A DNA stretch of 5,507 nucleotides from Sulfolobus sp. SCGC AB-777_G06 (lineage in GTDB: Archaea; Thermoproteota; Thermoprotei_A; Sulfolobales; Sulfolobaceae), in the NCBI GenBank assembly GCA_003086555.1, contig QEFN01000055.1:1-5507 (forward strand), read 5' to 3'. The notes under the pieces are model-generated. The model was not told where the DNA came from and ran no database searches. It worked only from the letters and a program-made list of their open reading frames with translations. The position numbers and the translations under genes were made by a program. Shown piece after piece: positions 1 through 2,482 of the stretch; position 1 is the first letter of the stretch; the number at the start of each line of letters is the position of its first letter.

Positions 1-1
1 C

Positions 2-88
2 CTGAGGAGCGTGGAGGCGTTCCTCAGGTTCGTTGAACGTTATTTAGGTGGACCGTCGGGGCTGATGAAAATCTTTAAGTTACGTTAA
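2..88 (+). CDS. C-terminal end of an unidentified gene (5' end outside window)
   Basis: An open frame enters from the left edge and ends at TAA 86-88, giving 28 residues that finish in GLMKIFKLR. The segment alternates hydrophobic and charged residues (SVEAFLRFVERYL), which fits an amphipathic C-terminal helix. I do not recognise the family. The orientation of the integrase fragment implies that sequence left of the tRNA belongs to the integrated element, so this could be an element gene. Its stop codon overlaps the stop of the minus-strand ORF at 85-219, the tight convergent packing typical of viral or plasmid genomes. Twenty-eight codons open by chance is quite possible, hence the low confidence. 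Confidence 0.35.
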   Translation: MRSVEAFLRFVERYLGGPSGLMKIFKLR

Positions 89-219
89 AGTCCCATAACT
101 GCTGTAAATATTTCAAATGAGTGAAAATGATGTCCACACTCACAGCTGCTTAGACAAAATTCAATTTTTCGCACAAATGAGGGATCTTTGCCGTCTTCTT
201 TCAACTCTACACAAATCAC
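85..219 (-). CDS. Small Cys/His-rich ORF, possible metal-binding protein of the element
   Basis: A GTG at 219 opens a 44-codon frame ending at TAA 85-87. The C-terminal half holds C22, C26, C28, H30, H31 and H33, a C-x3-C-x-C-G-H-H-x-H cluster that could bind zinc. It is preceded by an acidic/basic stretch (VELKEDGKD). The frame stays open upstream of the GTG for a further 29 codons without an ATG. The GTG lies about 30 bp from the centre of the TATA box at 246-252 read on the minus strand, which suits a leaderless or near-leaderless transcript. I recognise no family. The opposite strand also has a 44-codon ORF (117-251), but that frame looks less protein-like and runs into the TATA box. Confidence 0.35.
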   Translation of the reverse strand: MICVELKEDGKDPSFVRKIEFCLSSCECGHHFHSFEIFTAVMGL

Positions 220-225
220 GGCAAA
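187..225. repeat. 8-bp inverted repeat sharing the TTGCC/GGCAA core with the operator
   Basis: TTTGCCGT at 187-194 and ACGGCAAA at 218-225 are exact reverse complements separated by 23 bp. Together with the repeat at 234-267, the region carries four TTGCC or GGCAA half-sites (starting at 188, 220, 236 and 261). It may be an auxiliary regulator site, although it also lies inside the candidate small ORF. Confidence 0.25.
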
Positions 226-233
226 AATTGATG

Positions 234-267
234 GGTTGCCAATGCTTATAAACGCGAATTGGCAACC
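234..267. repeat. Perfect 10-bp inverted repeat flanking a TATA box (candidate operator)
   Basis: GGTTGCCAAT at 234-243 and its exact reverse complement ATTGGCAACC at 258-267 flank a 14-bp spacer (244-257) containing TTATAAA. The dyad centre (250.5) almost coincides with the TATA centre. A dimeric regulator bound here would cover the TBP/TFB site, so repression of the divergent transcripts (int fragment to the right, small ORF to the left) is the simplest inference. The repeat is seen directly; the operator role is inferred. Confidence 0.6.
246..252. promoter_or_regulatory. TATA box, probably bidirectional, for int(N) and the small divergent ORF
   Basis: TTATAAA on the plus strand reads TTTATAA on the minus strand, so it can serve both directions. 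An archaeal start site about 26 bp from the centre falls near 275 on the plus strand, just before the TTG codons at 277 and 286. On the minus strand it falls near 223, just before the GTG at 219. Both spacings suit leaderless or short-leader Sulfolobales genes. Confidence 0.5.
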
Positions 268-457
268 ATAATACGGTTGGCGTTCTTGGGCGAAAAAACA
301 ACGTCGTTATAAATTCGGCGACTATATTTTACGCGAAAGAAAAGGTCGGTATTACGTTTACAAGATAGAGTATGAGGACGGTAACCCAAGGGAACGTTAC
401 GTAGGTCCTTTAGCTGACGTAGTTGAATCGTATCTAAAAATGAAAGAAAATAGCATT

Positions 458-484
458 GGGGGTATTAGGGGGTATTCCCCTAAT
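458..484. repeat. Tandem GGGGGTATT repeats and 8-bp hairpin abutting the tRNA 3' end
   Basis: GGGGGTATT occurs at 458-466 and again at 468-476, a 10-bp period or about one helical turn. The second copy forms part of a perfect hairpin: arm ATTAGGGG (464-471), loop GTATT, arm CCCCTAAT (477-484). The hairpin ends three bases from the tRNA discriminator base. Read on the minus strand it follows the tRNA and is followed by a T-rich tract (about 433-451), so it could end the tRNA transcript. It could equally be an integrase-binding element next to the attachment core. Confidence 0.45.
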
Positions 485-487
485 GAG

Positions 488-531
488 GGCTCGGGCCGGG
501 ACTTGAACCCGGGACCTACGGGTCCACAGCC
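488..531. other. Probable attachment-site core (3' half of tRNA-His)
   Basis: int(N) reads straight into the 3' end of the tRNA, which is the arrangement left by SSV-type integration. In SSV1 the attachment core is about 44 bp and covers the 3' half of the target tRNA up to the anticodon region. The right boundary given here is only that analogy. A second copy should lie to the left of the window, next to int(C). Confidence 0.5.
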
Positions 532-563
532 CGTCGCTCTAACCAGGCTGAGCTACCCGAGCC
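488..563 (-). tRNA. tRNA-His (anticodon GTG)
   Basis: The minus strand folds into a full cloverleaf. The acceptor stem is GCTCGGG (562-556) with CCCGAGC (495-489). The D stem is GCTC/GAGC with GG in its loop. The anticodon stem ACGGG/CCCGT holds the seven-base loop CTGTGGA, with anticodon GTG at 527-525. The T stem is CCGGG/CCCGG with loop TTCAAGT. An extra G at 563 pairs with C73 at 488, the G-1:C73 pair that identifies histidine tRNA, so the isotype call does not rest on the anticodon alone. CCA is not encoded and there is no intron. The 3' half is the apparent integration target of the element at the left, and the gene remains intact. Confidence 0.96.
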
Positions 564-602
564 ACTTTGTGTCCCAGCCAATTAGAGTTTAACGAGTTGT
601 AG

Positions 603-610
603 AATTTAAA
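603..610 (-). promoter_or_regulatory. Candidate TATA box for tRNA-His
   Basis: The minus strand reads GTTTAAATT here, which would place transcription start near 581 and give a leader of about 18 bases before the tRNA. A weaker alternative, GTTAAAC near 588-594, would start transcription at about the first tRNA base. The rest of 564-694 shows no gene. Confidence 0.35.
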
Positions 611-694
611 CTTAAAGCTGAATAACATTCAACAAACTACGCTACAATAAGGAGAACCAATTTTCCAACGGTATGCAGAAAGACGCTTAAAGGC

Positions 695-1933
695 TCAATT
701 ACTTCTCCCCTTTCTTTTCATGTATTCCTCTTTTATCTTGTCTAACAAAATTCTTGCTATTACGCTCTTGTAATCCTTACCTAGCTTCTCGATCTTGTCG
801 TCACTTATAACGATGACTTCATTGAACTCCGACGAGAAAGCTATATCTTTTCTCCTAGCATTATTCGCGACGATCATATCAAATTTATGTCTTTCTTTCT
901 TTAACTTAGCTTTCTCTATTAATTCTTCATCATCCTTAGCAGTTTCGGCAGCAAAACCCACTAAGAACACCTCGTATTTCCTAATCGTTGAAGAGATCTT
1001 AGGAGTTTTTTCCAATTTGACTTCTGGAACCGCAGTATGGCTATCGATTTTGCTTTCTGCAGTGCTCACTGGTCTGAAGTCCGCAGGGGCACCTGCAAGG
1101 ATTACTATATCGTAACCCTCCTTGACTAATTTTTCCACCTCGTCCGCCATCTCCGCGGTTGTAGTTACTGGTACAGTCCTAATATATGGTTTATGATGTG
1201 TAGATAAGGGTCCATGAACCAGCACTACGTCAGCTCCCCTGAAGTAAGCCTCATTAGCTATATCAACTCCCATAGTCCCGCTACTGGGGTTTGAGATAAA
1301 CCTCACCGGGTCTATGAACTCTCTAGTCGGTCCAGCGGTAACTACAATTCTGAAACCAGTCAAGTCTTTACCCCTAAGCATATAAGTGACTATATACTGG
1401 GTTAGGTAATCCACTTCCGGATAGTGTGCTAAGTCCTTAATTATCATGGGTTCTATTATCTCTACACCGAATGATCTTAACTTTTGCAAATTGTCCCTTA
1501 ACTGAGGGGAATGATACATTGGTAAGTGCATTGCTGGGACTATTACTACCTTCTTCTTCATTCCTATGAAGTTCAGGGCTGTAAGTGTTACCGGAGTGTC
1601 CCCTATCCCGTTGGCAATTTTTGAGATTGTGTTAGCAGTTGCAGGGGCTATGATAAATACGTCGTAGTCCTCAGCCAACTCTACGTGTTCCAGTTCGCCA
1701 CCTATTTGCGTTATAACATCATTACCGGTAGCCCAATGGAACATAGTAGGTGAGATGAGTTTACTTGCATCTTCGCTCATTATCACCTTTACTTCGGCTC
1801 CCCTTCTCATTAAGCTCCTAGCCAGATCTAGGGACTTATAAATGGATACACTTCCAGTAACGCCGAGCAAGAGCCTCTTACCTTTAAGCTCTTCCGAGAT
1901 CTCTCCGATGATCCTCTTGGATGGGTGTACCAT
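695..1933 (-). CDS. coaBC: Bifunctional phosphopantothenoylcysteine decarboxylase / phosphopantothenate-cysteine ligase
   Basis: CoaB joins 4'-phosphopantothenate to cysteine using a nucleotide triphosphate, and CoaC decarboxylates the product with FMN to give 4'-phosphopantetheine for CoA. The 412 residues show both halves. The N-terminal flavoprotein domain (about 18-190) has GVTGSVSIYKS at 24-34, EHVEL with H83 as the likely catalytic histidine, APATANTISKIANG at 96-109 and PAMHLPMY at 133-140. The ligase domain (about 193-400) has TAGPTREFIDPVRF at 199-212, NPSSG at 215-219 and the loop VKLEKTPKI at 305-313. Most bacterial enzymes have Asn where H136 stands in the PAM motif. ATG 1933 is the only likely start, because an in-frame stop lies three codons upstream. 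The gene diverges from ard1 across 45 bp. It was probably transcribed alone, since the tRNA promoter follows downstream. Confidence 0.93.
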   Translation of the reverse strand: MVHPSKRIIGEISEELKGKRLLLGVTGSVSIYKSLDLARSLMRRGAEVKVIMSEDASKLISPTMFHWATGNDVITQIGGELEHVELAEDYDVFIIAPATANTISKIANGIGDTPVTLTALNFIGMKKKVVIVPAMHLPMYHSPQLRDNLQKLRSFGVEIIEPMIIKDLAHYPEVDYLTQYIVTYMLRGKDLTGFRIVVTAGPTREFIDPVRFISNPSSGTMGVDIANEAYFRGADVVLVHGPLSTHHKPYIRTVPVTTTAEMADEVEKLVKEGYDIVILAGAPADFRPVSTAESKIDSHTAVPEVKLEKTPKISSTIRKYEVFLVGFAAETAKDDEELIEKAKLKKERHKFDMIVANNARRKDIAFSSEFNEVIVISDDKIEKLGKDYKSVIARILLDKIKEEYMKRKGRSN

Positions 1934-1978: not shown

Positions 1979-2482
1979 ATGGAGTTCGCCGAAACGAAGA
2001 AATACGGAGCTTTCATAGTTAGATTGGCAAGGATTACTGATATAGACCAGATTGTAAAGATTAACAGACTAACCCTCCCAGAAAATTACCCATACTACTT
2101 CTTCGTAGAACATTTAAAGGAATATGGGGGTGCGTTTTATGTAGCTGACATAGACGGAGAAGTAGTAGGATATATTATGCCCAGAATAGAGTGGGGGTTC
2201 AGTAACGTTAAACAGATACCTACGTTAGTCAAGAAGGGTCACGTAGTTTCAATAGCGGTATTGGAAAAATTCAGGAAAATGGGAATCGGTACGGCGCTTT
2301 TACAGAACTCCATTAAAGCTATGAAAGAAGTATATGAGGCTGAAGAGGTCTATTTAGAAGTGAGAGTGTCAAACGCGCCAGCAATATCGCTTTATAAAAA
2401 ACTAGGGTTTTCCGAAGTAAAGGTGTTAAAGCACTACTATGCAGATGGAGAAGACGCTTATTTAATGGCTCGCCCTCTCTAG
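1979..2482 (+). CDS. ard1: N-terminal protein acetyltransferase, Ard1/Naa10-like (RimI family)
   Basis: This GNAT enzyme moves acetyl from acetyl-CoA to the N-terminal amino group of many cytosolic proteins; in Sulfolobus, Ard1 is the broad-specificity N-terminal acetyltransferase that acts among others on Alba. The 167 residues match the length I recall for Sulfolobus Ard1 and share its hallmark blocks. LPENYPYYFF (33-42) is in the substrate loop. GYIMPRIEWGFSN spans 64-76. The acetyl-CoA motif R-x-x-G-x-G is R99-K-M-G102-I-G104. YLEVRVSN (125-132) carries E127, APAISLYKKLGF (133-144) follows, and the tail is DGEDAYLMARPL. E35, H88 and E127 occupy positions linked to catalysis in this enzyme. 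The ATG at 1979 fits a leaderless transcript. The 3' end overlaps the convergent phosphoesterase gene by 21 bp; the conserved MARPL tail shows the overlap is not a miscalled stop. Confidence 0.92.
   Translation: MEFAETKKYGAFIVRLARITDIDQIVKINRLTLPENYPYYFFVEHLKEYGGAFYVADIDGEVVGYIMPRIEWGFSNVKQIPTLVKKGHVVSIAVLEKFRKMGIGTALLQNSIKAMKEVYEAEEVYLEVRVSNAPAISLYKKLGFSEVKVLKHYYADGEDAYLMARPL

Follow-up and report, generated by a model that had tools for sequence, protein, structure and literature searches.

The window analyzed here (5,507 nucleotides of contig QEFN01000055.1 from Sulfolobus sp. SCGC AB-777_G06) most likely carries, at a tRNA-His gene, an int(N) left as a fossil by a fusellovirus or pSSVi-like element. 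Suicidal integrases are described as having the recombination site inside their own gene, which is split upon integration (PMC8371274); every feature that can be seen here is in accord with that mechanism. We are very confident that the window holds the right-hand border (attR plus the integrase N-terminal fragment, int(N)) of a small SSV-type element with such an integrase, the element being a fusellovirus or else a satellite plasmid of the pSSVi kind. The relevant features, in window coordinates, are as follows.

2..105, plus strand: 3' end of a transposase gene of ISC1217 type (its final codons at 2-88), together with the adjoining end of the insertion sequence (IS), from sequence identity and the domain of a homologue.
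171..289, plus strand: control region upstream of the integrase gene, also conserved in pSSVi, SSV1, and ASV1 (blastn from 171, 185, and 187, respectively).
184..228, no strand assigned: inverted repeat with arms 184-194 and 218-228, from a repeat search, 91% complementary.
234..267, no strand assigned: perfect 10-bp inverted repeat with arms 234-243 and 258-267 around a TATA-box-like sequence (~245-252), from a repeat search.
272..487, plus strand: int(N), encoding the N-terminal domain of an integrase of SSV type; its frame stays open from 272 onward through the tRNA region and past 580.
464..484, no strand assigned: G+C hairpin with arms 464-471 and 477-484 on the element side of the att core, seen in the sequence.
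487..532, minus strand: att core, the 3' half of tRNA-His(GTG), from displaced partial copies in related genomes.
487..562, minus strand: intact tRNA-His, anticodon GTG, the sole tRNA called by ARAGORN.
695..1933, minus strand: coaBC (phosphopantothenoylcysteine decarboxylase/synthase), with PF04127 and PF02441, conserved beside tRNA-His.
1979-2482, plus strand: GNAT acetyltransferase, a further chromosomal gene to the right.

The plus-strand frame at 272-580 matches PF07935 (SSV1_ORF_D-335) over residues 12-81 with an E value of 1.4e-26, above the curated cutoff, and it also matches the PHROG profiles phrog_23443 (1.9e-27) and phrog_5127 (integrase, 1e-13). A tblastn search of 50,697 phage records with the int(N) peptide matched 59, of which 57 are named Sulfolobus and 2 Betafusellovirus; SSV1 aligned at 62% over 77 amino acids (E=2e-21), bearing out the proposed kinship with fusellovirus integrases. 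The closest named DNA match is pSSVi (blastn, 80% over 171-529, E=2.5e-85), ahead of SSV1 (78.6% over 185-525) and ASV1 (75.5% over 187-556). The original prediction had described positions 305-445 as nearly identical to the N terminus of the SSV1 integrase. The homology holds, as the PF07935 match attests, while the wording was somewhat strong for a DNA identity of 85.5% over a 138-bp int(N) stretch (82.6% to pSSVi) and for the amino acid identity given above. The similarity also reaches further to the left than the limits first set for the fragment, to ~171 with pSSVi or 185 with SSV1. Judged from these alignments, the homology to SSV-type integrases goes beyond chance. A chance resemblance, or a misassembly of viral DNA onto a chromosomal tRNA gene, is extremely improbable in view of the E values (1e-26 and 2.5e-85) and of the same junction type at tRNA-His in three related genomes (G203, G205, and G196).

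The int(N) fragment lies antisense to the intact tRNA at one border and runs into the 3' end of that gene, as had been claimed: ARAGORN places tRNA-His at 487-562 on the minus strand, the open frame 272-580 traverses it, and the DNA similarity to pSSVi extends to 529. All 76 bases of the tRNA are 100% identical in G195, G196, G204, G205, and G207, and displaced copies of ~43-46 nucleotides are found in G204, G205 (inverted), G206, G185, and G189. The coaBC gene adjoins tRNA-His also in G195, in G203 to G207, and in others; the named closest relatives of CoaBC include Sulfolobus acidocaldarius SUSAZ and Acidianus. A scan of genome contigs for coaBC relatives kept at least 80 loci, the majority in bacteria and remote archaea.

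The arrangement shares with the SSV1 integrase D-335 (NC_001338) the PF07935 N-terminal domain, an att site within the gene, and the antisense orientation to the tRNA. It differs in its target, as proposed at the outset: an SSV1-identical int(N) in G190 adjoins tRNA-Arg(ccg), in contrast to tRNA-His in the window. G190 also served as a positive control, with the C-terminal fragment, int(C), at 2839676-2840494 and int(N) at 2854955-2855191, in the predicted int(C)-then-int(N) order and with SSV1-sized spacing; in G188, int(C) is likewise followed by int(N) on one strand at ~6.5 kb. With pSSVi (NC_013777, Saccharolobus solfataricus P2), the window shares the control region, int(N), the hairpin, and the start of the att core. 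However, pSSVi has a whole int gene, its attP is unlike that expected here (91% over 35 nucleotides to tRNA-His), and the frame in the window lacks a start codon. The integration target of pSSVi is a tRNA-Arg gene.

In the reading that we favor, the element would have carried within its own integrase gene an attP copying the 3' half of tRNA-His, and this site would have recombined with the host tRNA-His gene. The exchange would have rebuilt the tRNA intact while cutting the integrase gene in two, keeping int(N) at the tRNA and sending int(C) and a partial tRNA copy far to the left. The body of the element would later have been lost or broken, leaving a start-less fossil with an IS nearby. We infer the split itself, since the window shows neither int(C) nor a second tRNA half.

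Two properties of the window, neither of them noticed in the original prediction, bear on the state of the element. After the stop at 269, the frame has no ATG, GTG, or TTG ahead of the conserved int(N) domain; its first start is at 440, within the fragment, so that the 272-580 frame offers neither the start codon nor the full-length frame of a functional integrase. The same position in G205 and pSSVi does have a start codon, and its lack in the window may reflect faulty assembly if the contig is metagenomic. The second property is the IS at the left end. Positions 1-105 are 98% identical to G187 (copies in G198 and G187 are 96 to 98% identical), and a homologous open reading frame in G193 (L156:650-1774) matches PF04693 (DDE_Tnp_2, "ISC1217") with an E value of 5.8e-118. 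The similarity to pSSVi begins at 171, and 106-170 yielded no identified feature; ~55-65 bp separate the IS from the conserved region. The IS tail indicates the closeness of an IS alone and not the loss of the element. No virion or core virus genes are visible within the window, which begins 486 bp to the left of the tRNA.

We searched window positions 1-1933 against 214 genomes of one order, all of which matched, most of them at the tRNA only. The 31 genomes G177 to G207 were taken for Sulfolobaceae, and in 28 of them, tRNA-His was searched up to 20 kb on the element side (G181, G198, and G202 had no usable tRNA-His). An int(N) is fused to tRNA-His in three of the 28: G203, G205, and G196. 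G203 and G205 resemble the window in having an int(N) of SSV1/pSSVi type fused to tRNA-His between glmM and coaBC; their int(N) sequences are 75% and 70% identical to pSSVi at the amino acid level, respectively, and both keep possible start codons. The G196 int(N) belongs to the SSV-Lassen branch and contains two stops. In G206, in addition, a partial tRNA-His copy with an int(N) fused to it lies ~12.7 kb away from the intact gene. A weak match at tRNA-His in G186 was rejected as an int(N) site on reading. In a tree of int(N) sequences, built by a quick method from 138 columns and with many forks unresolved, the window falls near pSSVi, G201-Ser, and G203; G205 stands apart and distant from G203, and the Lassen/tRNA-Ala group takes in G196 and the G206 copy. 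On this tree, elements from at least two integrase branches have used tRNA-His, and the site was probably entered three times or more.

Several rearrangements were seen at this site. The int(N)-bearing tRNA-His of G196 (G196:C1:1774648-1778747; L123, L116) is inverted relative to glmM and coaBC. In G205, an inverted tRNA-His half (L114:16663-16707) lies 3 kb from the gene, beside another int(N). A scan for virus gene remnants near a tRNA-His int(N), which covered G205 only, found a fragment matching an end-filament protein (phrog_6848, E=6.4e-27) together with phrog_9637 (function unknown) at L114:16982-17793, beside the tRNA-His int(N); we take the end-filament protein to be a fusellovirus protein. 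The sequence beside tRNA-His is nearly identical in G187, G206, and G207.

The element-side neighbor of tRNA-His in many genomes is glmM (PGM/PMM domains), which lies within 40 kb in 14 of the 28. The intervening gaps, obtained by subtracting coordinates by hand and accurate to a few bases, measure ~62 bp in G191, 63 in G190, 65 in G193, 209 in G201, 585 in G203, ~881 in G188, 2140 in G195, 2559 in G194, 7347 in G205, 11553 in G207, ~18093 in G204, 19813 in G206, 26239 in G186, and 33687 in G189. In another 13 genomes, glmM is further away, on the opposite side, or on a separate contig; G196 was left uncounted. We read the gaps of 62 to 65 bp (G191, G190, and G193) as empty sites, and the 585 bp in G203 contain hardly anything beyond int(N) with its control region, the rest of the element being gone. 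The junction is thus variable among related species, as anticipated, both in the presence of int(N) (3/28) and in gap lengths from 62 bp to 33.7 kb. The nearest relative found is G195, with 92% identity over 460-1933. Its tRNA-His has no int(N) and carries a G+C hairpin of ~26 bp resembling the tail of int(N), which we read as a more eroded remnant that need not stem from the same event as that of the window. We rejected G195 as a clean empty site on account of this hairpin, of what looks on reading like part of a transposase, and of the 2.1-kb gap to glmM.

In the 31 genomes, PF07935 gave 207 matches (29 genomes) and PF16795 gave 62 (19 genomes), of which 28 are strong int(C) matches (E below 1e-20). 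PF16795 has zero matches in G183 and G200, against 10 and 12 int(N), respectively. These counts bear on the possibility that the element persists on the left as a live or complete provirus or satellite, in which case int(C) and a tRNA-His half would be found several kilobases away and the IS would be a mere passenger. Relatives do hold complete split pairs at other tRNA genes, with int(C) and int(N) ~4-15 kb apart (G192, G188, and G190), and the int(N) of the window retains 83-86% DNA identity to pSSVi/SSV1 over 138 bp in an open frame. However, the domain has no start codon ahead of it, the IS lies ~55-65 bp from the conserved region, and int(N) is often without a partner. At the three tRNA-His int(N) sites in relatives (G203, G205, and G196), no int(C) was found within the ~20 kb searched (0/3). 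We therefore consider a live provirus unlikely. An old remnant, which the original prediction had kept as a fallback, is the likelier state: the frame has no start, an IS tail forms the left end, and the site in G195 is eroded. The orientation, which had been taken to place the element to the left, agrees with the order in the G190 control; it is the continued presence of the element there that is disfavored.

The use of tRNA-His as an integration target is already known in Sulfolobales: Table 5 of PMC3718332 lists tRNA-His[GTG] insertions for the S. islandicus strains REY15A and HVE10/4. That table shares the tRNA target with the window and also records "intN fragment" scars at other tRNA genes; it differs in leaving the integrase type at tRNA-His unnamed. 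The accessible portions of the literature that we searched, mostly open access, did not mention any int(N) of SSV type at tRNA-His. Among the best 25 of 192 phage records matching window positions 484-540, ranked by coverage times identity, the best spindle-virus match is ASV1 (85.7% over 42 nucleotides). No named fusellovirus in the searched phage collection seems to use tRNA-His, since a near-perfect tRNA half would have ranked first. IMG/VR contained no exact match for the tRNA-His core pattern or for the control-region pattern, and the SSV1 integrase query returned two loci there, SSV1 itself and a relative at 44%.

A different type of element occupies the same tRNA-His in G189, where a tRNA-His half lies ~63 bp from glmM, the intact gene 33.6 kb further on, and the insert carries an undivided tyrosine recombinase (L132:18238-19287, L146:7186-7229). 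The plasmid pBEU9E1 (NZ_CP077714, Saccharolobus shibatae; L238) has a copy of the tRNA-His 3' half (93% over 44 nucleotides), as does the G189 insert. In both, an undivided integrase gene lies near the tRNA-His half, unlike the split int in the window, and they probably use a different integration scheme. The scar in the window is a well-formed specimen of a known type at a repeatedly hit target gene, and it adds to SSV-type integration a clear instance at tRNA-His. Together with its relatives, it presents one tRNA gene between glmM and coaBC as a docking site for several different elements.

For comparison across targets, we fetched 80 int(N) loci, chosen from the listed part of 217 integrase matches; an antisense tRNA called by ARAGORN abuts the end of int(N) in 74 of them. 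An arrangement of a TATA box within an inverted repeat was recognized by pattern at 25 of the 80 loci, including the SSV1-identical one. The repeat at 234-267 is possibly an operator-like site for control of the integrase, with the TATA box itself a putative assignment. The G+C hairpin pattern is found to the left of 67 of the 74 int(N)-bearing tRNA genes and in 19 of 880 control stretches. Within 45 nucleotides of tRNA-His, it occurs at 4 of 29 sites (the window, G203, G205, and G195), three of which have int(N), and at none of the three empty tRNA-His sites; the pattern misses the imperfect stem of G196. Folded as antisense RNA, the window hairpin reaches -11.4 kcal/mol (z -1.63), with 12 of 200 shuffles as good.

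Such recurrence could mean that int(N) is kept by selection, either as a domesticated small DNA-binding protein or as a replacement 3' trailer or terminator for the tRNA. The matched part of int(N) is stop-free in 64 of the 80 loci, int(N) pieces are much commoner than int(C), and the hairpin, enriched at int(N)-bearing tRNA genes, persists alone in G195. However, the other 16 loci contain stops in the matched part, and the int(N) frame of the window itself is start-less. The hairpin sequence also encodes a recurrent integrase motif, it folds only mildly better than its shuffles, and it is dispensable, being absent at 25 of the 29 tRNA-His sites. Selection on int(N) therefore appears distinctly improbable to us, and we retain the reading of the window as the fossil of an integrated element.

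Scars of this kind raise the question of how integrases that destroy themselves upon integration persist and change targets. The mean identity of int(N) is 0.752 within the same genome, 0.742 for the same tRNA in other genomes, and 0.685 otherwise; when the tRNA-Ala rows are left out, these means become 0.814, 0.735, and 0.730, respectively. In aligned identity, genome and tRNA labels both exceed 200 of 200 shuffles. An ungapped comparison, blurred by misalignment, gave a higher mean for the same tRNA (0.695) than for the same genome (0.61), opposing the within-genome reading. On the int(N) tree, genome labels require 45 changes against a shuffled mean of 64.8 (0/200 as low), and tRNA labels require 54 against 59.4 (3/200 as low). 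By these comparisons, the likeness of int(N) by tRNA is real and comes mainly from the tRNA-Ala group. Examples of int(N) that are alike within one genome despite different tRNAs are L179, L194, L202, L207, and L218 of G203, whereas tRNA-Ala int(N) are instead alike across genomes. The within-genome likeness is compatible with bursts of a single lineage or with copies exchanging sequence. That by tRNA, seen chiefly at tRNA-Ala, agrees with inheritance or with element lineages that retain their target.

A speculative and rather unlikely extension is that int(N)-tRNA junctions form a genome-resident archive of N-terminal domains with varied att sites. These would outlast the elements, perhaps as tRNA 3' trailers, exchange sequence among themselves, and lend new tRNA targets to incoming suicidal-integrase elements by homologous recombination. 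The idea draws on the 207 int(N) against 28 int(C), on the within-genome identity without the tRNA-Ala group (81%, versus 73.5% for the same tRNA elsewhere and 73% otherwise), and on a nonsense codon common to four int(N) of G205. The nonsense codon is codon 4 in all four (L161, L182, L186, and L195), and their start regions are much alike. Three lie beside different tRNA genes (Gly-GCC, Val-GAC, and Gly-CCC), no tRNA was called by L182, and the upstream flanks have diverged. The common nonsense codon suggests either exchange between remnants after inactivation or an integrase acting in trans.
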